Assembly (NCBI GenBank): GCA_009780595.1
Contig: WQZT01000034.1
Coordinates: 1-10,532, forward strand
Direction of reading: 5' to 3'
DNA from: Treponema sp.
GTDB taxonomy: Bacteria > Spirochaetota > Spirochaetia > Treponematales > Breznakiellaceae
Length of the DNA stretch: 10,532 bases
Below, piece by piece: positions 1,151-7,693 of this stretch. The position numbers and the translations under genes were made by a program. The notes below the pieces were generated by a model that ran no database searches, was not told the DNA's origin, and was given only the letters and a program-made list of their open reading frames with translations. Within the stretch, counting starts at the first letter, position 1, and each line of letters opens with the position of its first letter.

Positions 1151-1189
1151 TATTGTCAACGATAAGTACTCACAAATATATTGACAATA
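1151..1189. repeat. Inverted repeat TATTGTCAA / TTGACAATA between the divergent promoters
   Basis: TATTGTCAA at 1151-1159 and its exact complement TTGACAATA at 1181-1189 are separated by 21 bases. The right arm overlaps the -35 box of the rightward promoter; the left arm lies 14 bases upstream of the -35 box of the leftward promoter. A third copy, TATTGTCAA, occurs at 1362-1370. The layout could be an operator shared by both promoters. However, TTGACA is itself the -35 consensus, so part of the repetition may just reflect promoter sequence. Confidence 0.5.
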
Positions 1190-1209
1190 CTTGTTCGTCA
1201 TGGTATAAT
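1181..1209 (+). promoter_or_regulatory. Perfect-consensus sigma-70 promoter facing right
   Basis: TTGACA (1181-1186), a 17-base spacer and TATAAT (1204-1209) on the plus strand match the housekeeping consensus 6/6. Initiation would fall near 1216. No gene with a ribosome binding site follows directly. The next strong element is the intrinsic terminator at 1420-1440, so the promoter appears to serve a small RNA or a leader of the gene at 1550. The -35 box is part of the inverted repeat described separately. Confidence 0.85.
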
Positions 1210-1215
1210 AAGCGC

Positions 1216-1440
1216 GGGTAATGAGGTGATTTTTCAGAATAATAGTGCCGTGGTAAAATAATGAGAATGAACATAATTGATAGACATGATGCAAACACGT
1301 TCACGCCGAATATGAGCCATAGCCTCATGTGGTACGATATGATGATACAGATTGTACAATTTATTGTCAACCAACCATCTAATAGTTTGATTGTTTCTCA
1401 ACTTTTTAGTAAATATCAGGCAGAGGAAACTCTGCTTTTT
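1216..1440 (+). ncRNA. Candidate small RNA or attenuated leader (about 225 nt)
   Basis: The unit is defined by a consensus promoter (-10 at 1204-1209, start near 1216) and an intrinsic terminator ending near 1440. Within it, an SD-like GAGGTGAT (1223-1230) lies near the 5' end but has no ATG, GTG or TTG at a usable distance followed by more than a few codons. The frame starting at 1261 lacks an SD and runs through the terminator. GTTTCTC (1393-1399) can pair with GAGGAAAC (1423-1430) with one bulge, which would break the terminator stem. That alternative fold would suit a leader that controls the outer-membrane protein gene at 1550. I do not recognise a known RNA family. Boundaries are inferred. 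Confidence 0.45.
1420..1440 (+). terminator. Intrinsic terminator with GAAA tetraloop
   Basis: GCAGAG (1420-1425), loop GAAA (1426-1429) and CTCTGC (1430-1435) form a perfect 6-bp stem closed by a stable GNRA loop, followed at once by TTTTT (1436-1440). It lies 110 bases before the next start codon and 210 bases after the rightward promoter. It either ends a small RNA or acts as an attenuator. Confidence 0.85.
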
Positions 1441-1444
1441 ATTG

Positions 1445-1459
1445 TACCCTGTCAGGGTA
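1445..1459. repeat. 15-base palindrome, possible operator
   Basis: TACCCTG, a central T, then CAGGGTA form perfect 7-base arms around one base. The arms are too close together for a normal RNA hairpin, so protein binding to DNA is more likely. It lies directly after the terminator and about 90 bases before the outer-membrane protein gene. A -10-like GATAAT at 1475-1480, without a good -35 box, may be a second promoter for that gene, and the palindrome would sit in its upstream part. Confidence 0.4.
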
Positions 1460-1549
1460 ATATCCCATATAGAGGATAATTTAGACTAAGCATCCACGTG
1501 ATATTCGTCTTGGTAAGCTCCGGGCGGAATCACAAGAAGGGGTTTTCGT

Positions 1550-2254
1550 ATGAAAAAAAGTTTCCTGGTTTTAACCCTCGCTGTGTGTGTGGCAGGAGGG
1601 GTTTTTGCACAGTCGCTGTTCAGCATTGGTGCTGGCGGTATTCTCAATTTTGGAGAAGTCGGCAATAACAGTGCTGAAAGAGGTAGAACAACAGGAGAAG
1701 ATGTCACAAGCGAACTGACGTATGGCGGCTTTGTTTTTTTTGATGCAACGTTTGTTGATCTTTCTGTTGCTATTGTAACTGGGTCTACAACAAGCTTAGC
1801 AACATTAGGAGGATCAAAGATAGAGAGAAACTCTTCGGTAACAGCGCTGGACTTTACGCTGCTGGGGAAATATCCCATCGCGCTTGGCGACACGTTTACC
1901 TTCTTCCCGCTTCTCGGCTTGGGTTACAACTATGTTCTTTCTGTAGAGTATGATAATATACCTACAGATCTTTTAGGCATTATGTCTTATGCTCCAGTTA
2001 CGAAGATAAGTGCGGCTGACTGGAGCGCTTTTAGATTCCATCTTGGTGTTGGTGGTGATTTAGATCTCAGCAAAAAAGTATATCTCAGAGGGCAATTGCT
2101 TGGCAGTTACCGATTCGCTTCCCCAGCTATCCAGGAGAAGTCGAAAATATATAAGCCTGTGCTTAGTTATCTTGCTGAGGGAGCGAACATACCTGTTGAT
2201 GCTAGCGGCGGCTTTGGTGGCACTGTCAAGATTGCCATAGGATTTAGGTTCTAG
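1550..2254 (+). CDS. Outer-membrane beta-barrel protein, Treponema type
   Basis: Predicted 234-residue outer-membrane protein of unknown specific function. Residues 1-20 form a Sec signal peptide (MKKSFLVL..., cleavage after VFA, mature start QSLFSIG). The mature part alternates polar and hydrophobic residues in short strands rich in Gly and aromatics. Examples are ALDFTLLGKYPIAL, FTFFPLLGLGYNYVL, FRFHLGVGGDL and VYLRGQLLGSYRF. It ends in the strand GTVKIAIGFRF with a C-terminal Phe, the usual signal for insertion by the BAM complex. Short barrels with the LGKYP...FPLLGLGY core are familiar from treponemes. AGAAGGGG lies 7 bases before the ATG. The segments between conserved strands are A+T-rich and use AGA and ACA codons, unlike the strands. 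Confidence 0.8.
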   Translation: MKKSFLVLTLAVCVAGGVFAQSLFSIGAGGILNFGEVGNNSAERGRTTGEDVTSELTYGGFVFFDATFVDLSVAIVTGSTTSLATLGGSKIERNSSVTALDFTLLGKYPIALGDTFTFFPLLGLGYNYVLSVEYDNIPTDLLGIMSYAPVTKISAADWSAFRFHLGVGGDLDLSKKVYLRGQLLGSYRFASPAIQEKSKIYKPVLSYLAEGANIPVDASGGFGGTVKIAIGFRF

Positions 2255-2407: not shown

Positions 2408-2445
2408 AGTTGCAAATTGCTCGGAAGGAGGCAAGAAGAAAAACA

Positions 2446-3564
2446 TTGAAAGGAAGCGAAGTGGTTGTCGAAGGAGTTGCCAAATCCTTCGGTACTGTTA
2501 AGGTCTTGAATGACGTTAATTTGAAAATCAAACGGGGCGAATTTTTCTCCCTTTTGGGGCCTTCCGGTTGCGGCAAAACAACGCTCTTGCGTATTCTTGC
2601 CGGCTTTGAAACCCCGGACTTCGGGGTGGTTACTTTTGACGGAATGAATGTCCTTCCTCTGCCCCCCAATCGGCGCCCGTCAAATACAGTTTTCCAAAGC
2701 TATGCTCTGTTCCCCCACCTGACGGTTTTCGAAAATGTGGCGTTTTCTATGCGGCTGAAAAAAATGCCGAAACAAAAAGTCGCCGCTAAAGTCGAAGAAT
2801 ACCTAAAACTCGTGCAGCTTGAGAATCACGCTCAAAAAAAGCCGAACCAGCTTTCGGGCGGTCAGAAACAGCGGGTGGCAATTGCGCGGGCGCTTATCAA
2901 CGAGCCAGATGTGCTTTTCCTTGACGAGCCGCTTTCCGCTCTCGATGCTAAACTCCGCCACCATATGCTCATTGAGCTTGATACGATCCACGACAAAATC
3001 GGCATCACGTTTATCTACGTTACCCACGATCAGGAGGAGGCGCTTTCTGTCTCCGACCGTATCGCGGTGATGAATCAGGGAAACGTGCTGCAAGTCGGCA
3101 CGCCGCACGAGATTTACGAAAGCCCCGCCACAGATTTTGTCGCCCGCTTTATTGGGGAGACAAATCTCTTTGATGCGACCGTTGCCTCTGTTGTACCGAT
3201 GGGCAACGAGTTTATGGTGGAGCTGGATATTCCCGAACTGGGGCGGATAAAAGTTACCGACAACGACGAGGTTCGCATCGGGCAGCGGGTGAGTTTTACC
3301 ATCAGGCCGGAGAAAATCGTCATTTCCAAAGAAAAACCTGCAACCAAGCGGGATGACATCAACCTTTTGCGGGGCGAAGTTGACGAGCCAATCTATTCCG
3401 GGTTTCAAACGAAGTTTTACGTTAAAACGGATAACCGCACGGTGATTGGGGTTACCAAGCAGCACGCGAAATACTCTGAAGAAGGGCCGGATATTGTGTG
3501 GAAGGACAATGTTTATATTTCCTGGAGCGCCCATGACGGGTATATCGTGGAGGTGCGGGAATAA
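2446..3564 (+). CDS. potA: Spermidine/putrescine ABC transporter ATPase PotA
   Basis: Cytoplasmic ATPase that powers polyamine import by the PotBC permease. Numbering from TTG 2446 gives 372 residues with every ABC motif: Walker A GPSGCGKTT (38-46), Q-loop Gln84 in VFQSYALFPH, signature LSGGQ (136-140), Walker B VLFLDE (156-161) and H-loop His194 in YVTHDQ. The C-terminal third (about 240-372) is a TOBE-type regulatory region, with RPEKI near residue 287, as expected for PotA. The start is uncertain. A strong AAGGAGG (2425-2431) lies 14 bases before TTG 2446, which is long, while AAGGAAG (2450-2456) lies 4 bases before GTG 2461. The frame is open further up, to TTG 2410, but that codon precedes the likely transcription start. 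The stop overlaps the potB start (TAATG). Confidence 0.93.
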   Translation: MKGSEVVVEGVAKSFGTVKVLNDVNLKIKRGEFFSLLGPSGCGKTTLLRILAGFETPDFGVVTFDGMNVLPLPPNRRPSNTVFQSYALFPHLTVFENVAFSMRLKKMPKQKVAAKVEEYLKLVQLENHAQKKPNQLSGGQKQRVAIARALINEPDVLFLDEPLSALDAKLRHHMLIELDTIHDKIGITFIYVTHDQEEALSVSDRIAVMNQGNVLQVGTPHEIYESPATDFVARFIGETNLFDATVASVVPMGNEFMVELDIPELGRIKVTDNDEVRIGQRVSFTIRPEKIVISKEKPATKRDDINLLRGEVDEPIYSGFQTKFYVKTDNRTVIGVTKQHAKYSEEGPDIVWKDNVYISWSAHDGYIVEVRE

Positions 3565-4556
3565 TGCGCGCGGCTGTTGAAAACAAGGAGCCACCAGGCC
3601 AGAGCGGAGCGGGGCAAAATCGCCCGGACGCCCAGACAGCCCTTGCAAAAAACCCGGCACTGAAGCAAAACTACGGACCGTTGTACTCGTTCCCCATCGG
3701 CGTGTGGTTTTCGATTTTCTTTCTCGCGCCGATTATCATTATCTTGATTTTCAGTTTCCTCAAACGGGGCGTGTACGGCGGCGTTGAGTGGGAGTTTTCG
3801 CTGTCCGCCTACCGCAGCCTTGTGGAAGCCGGCATTCTGCGAATTACTGTGCGGACGCTGGTCATTTCGACAATCGCCACGATAATCACGATTTTGATTG
3901 CGTTGCCCTGCGGCTACTATATGGCGCGGAGCAAGTATCAAACGGCGCTGCTCCTGTTGATCGTCATTCCCTTTTGGACAAACTTTCTCGTTCGGGTTTT
4001 CGCCTGGATGAATATTCTCGGCAGCAGCGGGTTTATCAACGAGTTCCTTTTGAACCTCAATCTTATTCTTGAACCGTTGTCGCTGATGTTTAATCAGCCG
4101 GCGGTTGTCATCGTGCTGGTGTATATGTACCTGCCGTACGCGATTTTGCCGCTGTTTGCCAGCATCGACAAGTTCGATTTTTCGCTGTTGGAAGCGGCGC
4201 GGGATTTGGGTGCGAGTAATTTTACTTCTATGGTAAAGGTGCTTTTGCCGAATATTAAAAGCGGTATTTTCACGGCTCTCATGTTTACGTTTATCCCGAC
4301 CTTTGGCGCGTACGCTGTGCCGCAGCTCGTTGGCGGGATGCACTCGTTTATGCTGGGGAACATCATCGCCAATCAGGTTACCCAAGCGAGAAACTGGCCA
4401 TTTGCCTCGGCGATTACGATGGTGCTTACGGTGATTAGCACGGTGGGAGTTGTGGTGATGATGATGGTTCAGCGGCGGGAAGCTGCCGTTTCCGCGCCGG
4501 GTGCGGTGTCTGCGGAGACGCAGGCGCACGCGGCTGCACAAGGAGCGCCGGTATGA
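3564..4556 (+). CDS. potB: Spermidine/putrescine ABC transporter permease PotB
   Basis: Inner-membrane permease subunit, 330 residues, forming the translocation path with PotC. About six membrane helices are visible, roughly at 44-65, 95-116, 127-148, 178-199, 234-256 and 283-303. The EAA loop that docks onto the ATPase is EAARDLGASNFTSMVKVLLP (210-229). The N-terminal 40 residues form a polar extension rich in Pro, Gln and Ala. The last 25 or so residues after the final helix are Ala-rich (ending AHAAAQGAPV). Both tails look dispensable and may vary between species. The ATG shares one base with the potA stop, and GGAGG (3549-3553) lies 10 bases upstream, indicating coupled translation. Confidence 0.93.
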   Translation: MRAAVENKEPPGQSGAGQNRPDAQTALAKNPALKQNYGPLYSFPIGVWFSIFFLAPIIIILIFSFLKRGVYGGVEWEFSLSAYRSLVEAGILRITVRTLVISTIATIITILIALPCGYYMARSKYQTALLLLIVIPFWTNFLVRVFAWMNILGSSGFINEFLLNLNLILEPLSLMFNQPAVVIVLVYMYLPYAILPLFASIDKFDFSLLEAARDLGASNFTSMVKVLLPNIKSGIFTALMFTFIPTFGAYAVPQLVGGMHSFMLGNIIANQVTQARNWPFASAITMVLTVISTVGVVVMMMVQRREAAVSAPGAVSAETQAHAAAQGAPV

Positions 4557-5425
4557 TGTTCAAAGGTTTAGCAATGCGCGGCATTCTCCCCAAGCGGGTG
4601 CATATTCCGCATGGCGAAGCATCGCGCCACGCCCGCCGTTCCAATAAAAGTGCGATTTCTGTTTCCAAGACGGTTTTTATCTTTGCGCTTGTGTTTCTCT
4701 TTCTGCCGCTGCTGGTGCTGGTGGTTTCCTCGTTCAACGATTCCACCAGTATGCGCTGGACAGGTTTTTCGCTCAGGTGGTACGAGCGCCTCATCAACGA
4801 GCGGCAGCTGTGGATCAGTTTCCGCAACAGCATTCTCATCGCGCTCACGTCAGCCACCGCCGCCACCGTCATCGGAACGCTCGGCGCAATCGGGGTTTGT
4901 TGGTATCGTTTCCGTCTGCGCGGCTATGTAAAGACGATTTCCTTTCTCCCGATGATACTGCCGGATATTATTCTGGGCGTGTCCCTTGCCATCTTTTTCG
5001 CGGGCGTTGGAATTCCGCTGGGGTTGACTACGGTTTTTATCGCCCACGCAACATTCACGTTGCCCTTTGTTTTTCTGATGGTAACAGCGCGGCTCGATGA
5101 GTTTGATCTTACCATTATCGAGGCTGCCCACGATTTGGGGGCGACTGAGCGGCAAACGCTTTTTAAGATAACCATTCCCTTTTGTATGCCGGGAATTCTC
5201 GCCGGTTTCCTGACAGCGATTACCCTGTCGCTTGAGGACTTCGTTGTAACTTTTTTCGTGGCGGGCCCCGGCGCGTCAACGTTACCGATTTTTATTTTTT
5301 CCGCCATTACTCGTAGAGGCGGTATAACTCCGATGATCAGCGCGCTCTCCGTGGTGATGATCGTAGCTACGGTAGTTCTGGCGTTTTTCCTGAGAAAGTT
5401 TCTCAAACAAATCGCGGCAAAATAA
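4553..5425 (+). CDS. potC: Spermidine/putrescine ABC transporter permease PotC
   Basis: Second inner-membrane permease, 290 residues, partner of PotB. Helices are visible near 39-60, 93-115, 129-152, 158-178, 211-234 and 262-281. The ATPase-docking EAA loop is EAAHDLGATERQTLFKITIP (190-209). The block LSLEDFVVTFFVAGPG after the fifth helix is typical of PotC. The gene overlaps potB by four bases (ATGA), and AAGGAG (4540-4545) lies 7 bases before the ATG. A second ATG follows at once. The first 38 residues are basic and polar and precede the first helix. Confidence 0.93.
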   Translation: MMFKGLAMRGILPKRVHIPHGEASRHARRSNKSAISVSKTVFIFALVFLFLPLLVLVVSSFNDSTSMRWTGFSLRWYERLINERQLWISFRNSILIALTSATAATVIGTLGAIGVCWYRFRLRGYVKTISFLPMILPDIILGVSLAIFFAGVGIPLGLTTVFIAHATFTLPFVFLMVTARLDEFDLTIIEAAHDLGATERQTLFKITIPFCMPGILAGFLTAITLSLEDFVVTFFVAGPGASTLPIFIFSAITRRGGITPMISALSVVMIVATVVLAFFLRKFLKQIAAK

Positions 5426-5458: not shown

Positions 5459-5489
5459 CTATATACTCTATATGAAGAGGAGAAGAAAG

Positions 5490-6539
5490 ATGAAAAAAGG
5501 TATACTCTTTCTTGCGAGAATGGCTGCGCTGATTGCGCTTGCCGCTTTGTTTTTTGGCTGCGACCGCAGAGAACGGTTGCATATTTTCAATTGGGCGGTG
5601 TACACACCTCAATCGGTAATCGAAGCGTTCGAAAAGGAATTCGGCGTGAGAGTGGTATACACCGAATTTGCCAGTAACGAGGAAATGCTTGCCCGGCTTA
5701 TGGCTGGTGGTGGCAAAGGGTTTGACATCGTGTTTCCTTCAGGTTACTACGTCGGGATTATGATCGAGCAGGGCTTATTGGCGCAGCTTGATCATTCCCT
5801 CATGCCCAATCTTGTAAATATCAACCCTGAGCTTCTTGAAAAAGTTAAGTACGACCCCGCAATGGACTACGCAATTCCCTATTTTTGGGGAGGAGCGGGA
5901 GTTATCGTGAACACTGCGATGGTTCCCGAATTTGAGCGGGACATAAGCATTTTCAGCCGCGAGGATCTTGCCGGAAGGATGACAATGCTCGACGATCCCC
6001 GCCACGTTATTGGCGATGCGTTGAATCATCTGGGCTTCTCGCCAAACTCAAGAAACCCCGAGGAAATTGCCGCCGCCCGCGATCACATTATCGCCACGTG
6101 GAGGCCGAACCTCGTAACGTTTAACTCCGAGATAATCGGCACGGGCTTTGCCAACGGCGAGTTTTGGGTGGTGCAGACCTGGGCGGAAAATGTTTTCCTT
6201 GAAATCATGGAAAACGAGGAGATGATGGCAAACGCTGTGTTCTTTCTCCCGCCGGGAACTCCTTCGTATACCGATAATATGGTTCTTCTCAAAGATTCGC
6301 GGAACAAGGAACTGGCGCACAAGTTTATCGATTTTATTCACCGCCCGGATATTTACGCGTTGTTTCTTGACGAGTTCGGGCTTCCTTCGACGGTCAATAT
6401 TCCGGCACGGCAGTACACCACGGTAACGCCGTGGTTTTCGGTGGAAGATATGGAACTAACTGGAGAAGTTTTTGACGATGTTGGTCCGGCGATGGCGCAT
6501 TTTACCGATGCGTGGTTTTCTATAAGGATCGGAAATTAG
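5490..6539 (+). CDS. potD: Polyamine-binding lipoprotein PotD, copy 1
   Basis: Substrate-binding lipoprotein that delivers spermidine or putrescine to PotBC, 349 residues. Signal and lipobox run through residues 1-23 (LAALFFG) with lipidated Cys24. PotD landmarks are FNWAVYTP (33-40), FPSGYYV (82-88), MLDDPR (166-171), QTWAENVF (229-236), YTDNMV (260-265) and DDVGPAM (329-335). Compared with ligand-contacting residues recalled for E. coli PotD, it keeps Ser83, Tyr85, Asp168, Trp229 and Asp257 equivalents. Glu171 is His172, Trp255 is Tyr260 and Gln327 is Phe328 here. GAGGAG (5477-5482) lies 7 bases before ATG 5490, so the in-frame ATG at 5472, which precedes that SD, is not the start. The gene follows potC after a hairpin and is tandemly duplicated. 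Confidence 0.92.
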   Translation: MKKGILFLARMAALIALAALFFGCDRRERLHIFNWAVYTPQSVIEAFEKEFGVRVVYTEFASNEEMLARLMAGGGKGFDIVFPSGYYVGIMIEQGLLAQLDHSLMPNLVNINPELLEKVKYDPAMDYAIPYFWGGAGVIVNTAMVPEFERDISIFSREDLAGRMTMLDDPRHVIGDALNHLGFSPNSRNPEEIAAARDHIIATWRPNLVTFNSEIIGTGFANGEFWVVQTWAENVFLEIMENEEMMANAVFFLPPGTPSYTDNMVLLKDSRNKELAHKFIDFIHRPDIYALFLDEFGLPSTVNIPARQYTTVTPWFSVEDMELTGEVFDDVGPAMAHFTDAWFSIRIGN

Positions 6540-6643
6540 GTTGTCGTTCGCGGCTGATTGCTGGTTAATCGATTGAGAGTAAGATGCCGAAACTCATTTC
6601 CGGGTACTCTTGCATTTTTACAAAAGGAAAGAAGAGAAGAAAG

Positions 6644-7693
6644 ATGAAAAAAGGGATGTTCTTTTTTGCAAGGGCAGTTGCGCTGTGTATGCTTGCGGTT
6701 TTGTTTTTCGGCTGCGACCGCAGAGAGCGGCTGCACATCTTTAATTGGGCGGTGTACACTCCCCAATCGATCATTCAGGCGTTCGAGAAAGAATTCGGTG
6801 TACGAGTAATTTACACCGAATTCGCCAGCAACGAAGAAATGCTCGCCCGTCTTATGGCAGGCGGCGGCAGAGGGTTTGACATTGTTTTTCCATCAGGCGA
6901 TTATGTTGGCATTTTGATTCGGCAGGGTCTGTTGGAAAAGCTAAATCATTCCCTTCTGCCTAATCTTGAAAATATCGATCCGTATGTTCTCAGCAAAGCT
7001 ATATACGATCCTGCAATGGAATATTCCGTTCCCTATTTTTTTGGCGCGGCGGGAGTTGCGGTTAACACTGCGATGGTTCCTGATTTTCCGCGCGATATGA
7101 GCATTTTCAGCCGCATTGATCTTGCCGGAAAAATGACAATGCTCGATGATCCCCGGCAAGTTATCGGCGATGCTCTGCACTATCTGGGCTTTTCGGTAAA
7201 CTCCAGAAACCCCGAAGAAATTGCCGCCGCCCGCGATCACATCATCACTCACTGGCGGCCGAATCTCGTAACGTTTAACTCCGAGATAATCGGCACGGGT
7301 TTTGCCAACGGCCAGTTTTGGGTGGTGCAGACCTGGGCAGAAAATGTTTTCGCGGAAATCGCCGATGATCCGCAGAAGCTCAACGACACGGAGTTTTTTG
7401 TCCCGCCGGGCGCTTCTTCATTTACCGACAATATGGTTATTATGAACGGCTCGCGCAACGTAGAACTGGCGCACAAATTTATCAACTTCATTCACCGCCC
7501 GGACATTTACGCGATGTTTGCTGATGCTTTCGCGTTGCCCTCCACCGTCAACGTTCCCGCGCGGAATTACACCCGCGTAACCCCGTGGTATTCTGTGGAG
7601 GATATGAAATTGACCGGGGAAATTCAAGACGATGTCGGTCCGGCGATGGAGTATTTTACAGACGCCTGGTTTTCTATAAAAGTTGGACACTAG
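6644..7693 (+). CDS. Polyamine-binding lipoprotein PotD, copy 2 (tandem paralogue)
   Basis: Second substrate-binding lipoprotein, also 349 residues and colinear with copy 1 without gaps. By eye there are about 74 differences in 325 mature residues (roughly 77% identity). Lipobox LAVLFFG with Cys24. The pocket differs: FPSGDYV puts Asp86 where E. coli PotD has Tyr85. Gln172 replaces the Glu171 equivalent, Phe260 the Trp255 equivalent, and Gln328 restores the E. coli Gln327 equivalent that copy 1 lacks. It may bind another polyamine or the same one with different affinity. The start at 6644 matches copy 1; the frame is open to ATG 6584, which would add 20 residues ahead of the signal peptide. 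The SD is weak (AAAGGAAAGAAG, 6623-6634). The 104-base gap after copy 1 shows no promoter or terminator, so co-transcription is likely. Confidence 0.9.
   Translation: MKKGMFFFARAVALCMLAVLFFGCDRRERLHIFNWAVYTPQSIIQAFEKEFGVRVIYTEFASNEEMLARLMAGGGRGFDIVFPSGDYVGILIRQGLLEKLNHSLLPNLENIDPYVLSKAIYDPAMEYSVPYFFGAAGVAVNTAMVPDFPRDMSIFSRIDLAGKMTMLDDPRQVIGDALHYLGFSVNSRNPEEIAAARDHIITHWRPNLVTFNSEIIGTGFANGQFWVVQTWAENVFAEIADDPQKLNDTEFFVPPGASSFTDNMVIMNGSRNVELAHKFINFIHRPDIYAMFADAFALPSTVNVPARNYTRVTPWYSVEDMKLTGEIQDDVGPAMEYFTDAWFSIKVGH

Follow-up and report, generated by a model that had tools for sequence, protein, structure and literature searches.

A recurrent structured RNA before export-like genes in Breznakiellaceae, a probable 5' leader and candidate translation-coupled attenuator

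In the attenuators of the trp and his amino-acid biosynthesis genes, the position of a ribosome on a leader ORF chooses between mutually exclusive hairpins. At the pil1 locus of Streptococcus gallolyticus, repeats in a leader ORF decide whether the ribosome reaches and melts a premature terminator, and pil3 is arranged like pil1, as far as these loci are described in PMC3894217. For Treponema, two candidate structured RNAs, HMP2_2105 and HMP2_3043, are given upstream of L7/L12 and L20 (86 and 57 bp) in PMC8040213. The leader presented here can be likened to these two by description only: all are cis-acting Treponema candidates directly upstream of genes, and HMP2_2105 and HMP2_3043 differ in preceding ribosomal protein genes (PMC8040213). 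A description of this leader is absent from the literature searched, which included sections of PMC11109978, PMC8040213, PMC8632094, PMC10319736 and PMC3894217 and had most subscription papers and supplements outside its scope.

The locus lies in a window of 10,532 nucleotides, the whole stretch of Treponema sp. DNA analyzed here (contig WQZT01000034.1). The initial annotation had read the segment between a promoter and a hairpin near 1440 as an orphan transcription unit that makes a 225-nt small RNA. From comparison with related sequences, we consider it probable that the segment is the 5' leader of the gene at 1550-2254, that it has a conserved fold, and that it controls this gene by translation-coupled attenuation. 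The proposed housekeeping promoter was recovered by a pattern scan (1181-1209, plus strand), with TTGACA at 1181-1186, a 17-base spacer and TATAAT at 1204-1209 (12/12 matches) and a TG before the -10 element. The scan reports 21 promoter-like sites in the window (10.0 +/- 3.1 in shuffled sequences), two of them with 12/12 matches. With the start of transcription placed from this promoter, the predicted leader spans 1216-1549 (plus strand); no ATG is present at the predicted start in the window copy, and the distance from the promoter to the first hairpin, H1, is 200 nt.

Several other elements surround this promoter. The second 12/12 promoter, on the minus strand at 1109-1137, is divergent from it and precedes a small lipoprotein-like ORF (1015-635). 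A perfect inverted repeat of 11 nt, AGTATTGTCAA/TTGACAATACT, at 1149-1159 and 1181-1191 overlaps the -35 element, and TATTGTCAAC is found again at 1362-1371, where there is also a minus-strand promoter-like site with 11/12 matches (1370-1342). It is possible that these sites represent an operator and an antisense promoter inside the leader.

Four hairpins, all on the plus strand, can be placed between the promoter and the gene. H1 (1412-1443; pattern scan, MFE and covariation) is terminator-like, with an outer stem (1412-1415/1440-1443) and an inner stem (1418-1425/1430-1437) that carries a GAAA loop. H2 (1445-1459) is a TACCCT/AGGGTA hairpin read from the sequence on the family consensus, and the single-sequence MFE of the window pairs part of it otherwise. 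H3 (1462-1477; arm a at 1462-1465 and arm A at 1474-1477) comes from the family consensus; it is weak, with four pairs in the window copy, and is absent from the single-sequence fold. H5 (1498-1533; arm B at 1498-1513 and arm C at 1520-1533) is found in both consensus and MFE and ends 3 nt before the Shine-Dalgarno sequence AAGGGG (1537-1542, plus strand), which was recognized from the sequence and aligned with that of the siblings. The core at 1409-1552 is unusually stable (z -2.87). The gene that follows (1550-2254, plus strand, 234 codons) encodes a TDE1717-like outer membrane beta-barrel protein according to NCBIfam NF049866 (E 5.3e-24; 85.3 bits, below the cut-off of 135). Further along the window, two similar tandem ORFs (5472-6539 and 6584-7693) follow an ABC-transporter-like set (2410-5425) and look by eye like substrate-binding proteins of polyamine-type transporters.

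Using blastn against 39 genomes, we found parts of 1379-1469 twice more in the genome that holds the window (64% complete, 1.73 Mb) and in none of the others. At both extra places the conserved DNA continues to the ATG of a signal-peptide gene, and the window sequence itself is conserved in siblings up to the ATG at 1550. The matched part begins at 1379, about 30 nt before H1, and GAGGTGAT near the 5' end falls outside it. A covariance model (R1) was built from six copies, including two from the congener G001 that lie before lipoprotein-like genes. At E<=1, it reports 23 places in G001, along with two weak ones in G003 (0.06 and 0.49) that were left uncounted. A MAFFT alignment of 27 copies gave a second model (R2), whose 3' end includes the start codon. 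R2 was run on the genomes of the genus and, with stricter filters and 16 candidates scored per genome, on 195 genomes of the family. At E<=0.01 per genome, R2 finds 102 copies (13 in the window's own genome, 41 in G001 and 48 in 27 other genomes), distributed over 29 of the 195 genomes and 8 of the 56 genera of the family Breznakiellaceae; the E-values, which apply to each genome singly, are rough, and about 2 of the matches in the 195 genomes could be due to chance. The only R2 match reported in the window contig is 1410-1552. Among 390 genomes drawn from the order, which include an unspecified number from the family itself, 17 have an R2 match at E<=0.001, all 17 within the family. The congeners G002 and G003 (77% and 86% complete) have none at E<=0.01; next to the 41 copies in G001, this may mean that the device is gained or lost quickly. 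We also tried a DNA pattern of the H1-H2 core in 117 relatives, which listed 41 matches versus 27 for a reversed control, mostly chance, and kept only its matches in the same genus. The initial annotation knew of no described family that fits, and Rfam gives no match in the window at E<=1 (there is no tRNA either), and for 12 member loci Rfam 15 gives two weak matches (ceN30 and SCARNA7), far under the gathering scores.

We aligned 95 of the 102 copies (13 from the window's own genome, 41 from G001 and 41 of the 48 from the other 27 genomes, leaving out 7 of other genera); 27 of these 95 trained R2. Many copies are paralogues, so the counts below are not independent. Counts of promoters, repeats and frames omit copies that are short of upstream sequence or of the needed promoter, leaving 67, 76, 80, 83 or 42 copies.

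The genes behind the leader share export-like starts. Among the 92 assessable downstream genes (3 of the 95 copies have none), 85 encode an export-like N-terminus, 69 of these with a lipobox-like motif by a crude rule, versus 43 of 227 control ORFs of at least 150 codons taken mechanically. When the remaining seven were inspected by eye, two (L105 and L110) looked like lipoproteins and three (L098, L177 and L178) seemed to be in the wrong frame; the count was kept at 85. The longest ORF starts at the last three bases of R2 in 70 of the 92, an agreement to be read knowing that the end of R2 was built on start codons, and the export-like N-termini lie outside R2. Pfam matches for 13 of the leader proteins are to beta-barrel, fn3, Chlam_PMP, LRR_5 and GLUG domains, or there are none, and 15 downstream proteins that were scanned have export-like starts in common and no common pathway. 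A tie between the leader and the beta-barrel family was considered and rejected: relatives of the beta-barrel gene in three named Treponema genomes (Gx485_bin165, Gx481_bin162 and Co333_bin15, which we would guess to come from termite guts) are not preceded by the leader, which therefore follows export and not a single gene family. A covariance search of relatives, as the initial annotation had suggested, finds the structured RNA recurring, mostly before export-like genes, so it is probably not an orphan. In the window, too, the unit is probably not an orphan, since no other plus-strand terminator-like site lies between 1437 and the ATG at 1550 and the siblings are conserved up to the ATG. Both the recurrence of the fold before export-like genes and that of the distance from promoter to hairpin lead us to read the RNA as the probable 5' leader of the gene at 1550.

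The promoter distance was counted in 67 copies with 350 nt of upstream sequence. Strict promoters occur on the gene's strand in 28 of the 67 and on the other strand in 12, and those located 196-251 nt before H1 make up 20 of 31 strict sites on the gene's strand versus 1 of 13 on the other. With a looser scan the strands are less separated (44/76 and 31/76).

Covariation supports the fold. In the MAFFT alignment of 27 copies, which is not fitted to structure, 89.9% of the cells in H1, H2, H3 and H5 are paired, 12 of 29 pairs have changes on both sides (7.9 in shuffles), and the covariation score is 0.241, versus 0.150 in shuffled alignments, none of 500 attaining the observed value, and 0.106 at most in slid ones. 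The number of further pair types (32 versus 33.0 shuffled) is the one of five covariation measures without excess. In the alignment of 95 copies, which is fitted to the model and leans towards it, all 29 model pairs have changes on both sides and the score is 0.416 versus 0.190 shuffled. G-U cells outnumber A-C cells (250 versus 35 in the fitted and 59 versus 11 in the unfitted alignment), which points to an RNA of the plus (gene) strand.

The H1 stem and the T run (1436-1440) named by the initial annotation are there, yet the T run is partly paired: in the predicted fold, three of its five T are taken up by stems, two by the inner and one by the outer, which leaves 1438-1439 free. Terminator-like sites number 21 in the window (14.5 +/- 3.7 in shuffles). 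Across the family, 55 of 95 copies have a terminator-like H1 when loops may be as large as 45, where shuffles predict 5.8. With a loop limit of 8, the number is 21 of 95, where shuffles predict 2.5. The T run has 3 or fewer T in 21 of 95 copies, the 3' end of H1 is predicted to be paired in 78 of 95, and one copy (L084) has no H1 of the family kind by eye. We had considered that H1 is no terminator since its T run pairs with the 5' side, and dropped this given the 55 terminator-like copies with larger loops.

The segment was said to hold no credible protein, which does not agree with a 72-codon ORF (1261-1479, plus strand; sequence and frame count) that traverses H1 and has its stop codon (1477-1479) on arm A; by eye it has no clear Shine-Dalgarno sequence. 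In the window copy, 231 nt are open and end at arm A, and a frame of at least 150 nt with its end there is open in 1 of 40 shuffles of this copy. Frames open for at least 150 nt and ending at arm A are found in 52 of 83 copies, versus 16.1 expected from dinucleotide shuffles. Selection on the amino acids of the leader peptide is not seen in the part before the repeat of 11 G001 sibling ORFs, which is what the test covered rather than the window ORF (79 synonymous and 233 non-synonymous changes; expected synonymous fraction 0.214). A frame conserved codon by codon in relatives, which the initial annotation regarded as telling against its small RNA, thus finds divided evidence: the frame at 1261-1479 is open in relatives above shuffles, and amino-acid selection is not seen in that other part of the sibling ORFs. 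A coding frame read as protein was rejected: from H1 to the ATG, the frame of the gene is open in 7 of 95 copies and some frame in 21, and the tested part of the sibling ORFs shows no amino-acid selection.

In many siblings the upstream half has features that the window copy does not have. An ATG lies 6-8 nt after the -10 element, coinciding with the predicted transcription start, in 26 of the 42 copies with a promoter (7 in the window's own genome, 14 in G001 and 5 in others); chance at 3/64 would give about 2. Of 80 copies, 33 have tandem repeats within the 250 nt that precede H1 (8/12 own genome, 18/30 G001 and 7/38 others), versus 10 of 356 windows taken as controls and 12 of 160 sequences lying 5' of other ORFs; the window copy has none. 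Of the 26 predicted leaderless ORFs, 19 have a repeat and all 19 read into it, and the repeat unit is 2, 5, 7 or 8 bases, never a multiple of three. For 15 of the 19, one of the frames that follow the repeat has a stop codon whose end lies -2 to +9 nt from where arm A starts, and 26 of the 30 other frames of these copies stop before H1; as stored, 3 of the 15 sequences are in the long frame and 12 in a short one. In the other 4 ORFs with a repeat, none of the frames ends close to arm A. Separately, in the copies that were read (L054, L055, L091 and L094 in G001, and others), a dispersed repeat, ATGTAACTCCTTANCCTGTAACGACTTACG, follows poly-C runs of 8 to 30 bases. One genome has it at another 17 places, of which 14 lie upstream of an R2 match on the same strand (compared by eye), and it is likely another slippage site.

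This layout resembles pil1 in its promoter, its leader ORF with repeats that are not multiples of three, its terminator-like hairpin and its surface-protein genes, and in both cases the short frame ends before the hairpin and the long frame enters it, as far as PMC3894217 describes the locus. The short frame ends 39 or 49 bp before the hairpin in pil1 (PMC3894217); among the 26 short frames that the 15 copies have, 20 end 70-130 nt before it. The pil1 leader ORF has a recognizable ribosome binding site where the siblings have an ATG at the predicted transcription start, and the family has further hairpins (H2, H3 and H5) with two exclusive pairings, and 41 copies in one genome. Moreover, pil1 is supported by genetics (PMC3894217), and the family by sequence alone. 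It is from the pil1-like layout and the excess of terminator-like H1 hairpins that we read the family as putative translation-coupled attenuators. The window copy has, like pil1, a terminator-like hairpin (H1, 1418-1437) inside the leader ORF; unlike pil1 it has no repeat, the frame-shifting repeat being found in 19 sibling copies. We would say that the window copy probably works like pil1, and do not file it as a member because it has no repeat, no ATG at the start, an ORF without a clear Shine-Dalgarno sequence, and a weak H3 and A:B pairing. It may be fixed in the long frame, or part of the device may have been lost.

The proposed mechanism is as follows. RNA polymerase would start near 1216. 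With no ribosome following, H1 would form and many transcripts would stop there, giving the 225-nt RNA; the small RNA of the initial annotation may thus exist as a premature-termination product of H1, and the structured RNA itself is most probably the leader of the beta-barrel gene. A ribosome translating the leader ORF (1261-1479) would open up H1 and H2 and end translation on arm A. Transcription would then continue, and arm B would pair with arm C beside the Shine-Dalgarno sequence and not with arm A. In many siblings, though not in the window copy, the tandem repeat in the predicted leaderless ORF would switch the frame and, with it, the gene. The choice between A:B and B:C, set by the ribosome ending on arm A, would form a second layer. 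As in the trp and his attenuators, ribosome position would choose between exclusive hairpins; unlike them, the family precedes genes for exported proteins, the choice would be set by the stop of the ORF, and no amino-acid selection is seen in the part tested.

The exclusive helix A:B pairs the downstream arm of H3 with the upstream arm of H5. In it, 87.3% of the cells are paired, four pairs have changes on both sides, and the covariation score is 0.148 versus 0.105 shuffled; further pair types (12 versus 10.3 shuffled, 67/500) show no clear excess. Within copies, the A:B and B:C duplexes are stronger than when arms are permuted across copies (-12.62 versus -10.93 and -14.20 versus -10.86 kcal/mol, 0/5000 permutations each), in permutations that take no account of relatedness, and a:A duplexes within copies are also stronger than all 5000 permutations. 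The control pairs A:C and a:B give 3528/5000 and 700/5000, and a pairing a:C was set aside as weak (216/5000). A:B and B:C hold separately in G001, in the window's own genome and in other genera (at most 11/5000), and a:A holds in two of these three groups (429/5000 in the own genome). Fold energies with A:B and with B:C are close in 89 copies (median difference -0.35 kcal/mol); in the window copy B:C is better by about 10 kcal/mol, A:B having only 4 pairs there. In the same 89 copies, the Shine-Dalgarno sequence has a mean unpaired probability of 0.43 in the free fold, 0.41 with A:B and 0.43 with B:C. Sequestration of the Shine-Dalgarno sequence, or an RNA thermometer, was rejected on this equal accessibility, which also makes the second layer the least certain part of the proposal.

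That accessibility does not depend on the fold also favors a leader without attenuation, whose hairpins only stabilize the mRNA or aid ribosome loading, with H1 no working terminator and the ORF untranslated. The partly paired T run of H1 agrees with it, as does the way in which the stable hairpins end just 5' of the Shine-Dalgarno sequence across the family. We regard this reading as unlikely, though it deserves to be kept in mind, given the excess of open frames that end on arm A, the frame-shifting repeat units inside predicted leaderless ORFs, and the co-adaptation of the alternative helix A:B.

An orphan small RNA, that is, a 225-nt transcript acting on other RNAs, would account for the perfect promoter and the terminator-like hairpin, both of which are pattern matches only. 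However, the segment 1216-1441 alone folds no better than its shuffles (z -0.24), the match within the own genome starts only about 30 nt before H1, and the conservation runs on to the ATG and is tied to the downstream gene, so that we hold this reading to be quite improbable. Similarly poor prospects attach to a cis switch sensing a small molecule or a protein (a riboswitch or protein-bound leader) that would choose A:B or B:C for a set of surface genes: the two exclusive, co-adapted helices and the conserved H3 would suit it, but the loops are poorly conserved across copies, Rfam gives no match, and the 15 scanned proteins have export-like starts rather than a pathway in common. A repeat acting at the DNA level (an operator, recombination site or mobile element) would fit the many copies per genome and the perfect inverted repeats in some of them, and is hardly credible given the preponderance of G-U over A-C changes and the export-like genes behind its 3' end, whose N-termini lie outside R2.

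Under translation-coupled attenuation, the apparent orphan small RNA becomes a testable leader. More tentatively, and with somewhat less than even confidence, we suggest that one RNA device may serve the surface-protein repertoire of the family: repeats slipping in leaderless ORFs would set where the ribosome stops, the stop codon would lie on the arm that selects one of two hairpins, and genes for lipoproteins and beta-barrel proteins, dozens of them in a genome (41 in one), would flip independently. The attenuating leader, if it is one, would be an RNA family without an Rfam match that is linked to exported proteins of Treponema relatives represented here by draft genomes, and a phase-variation mechanism shown at pilus loci in a single Streptococcus would be extended to surface proteins across a whole genome.
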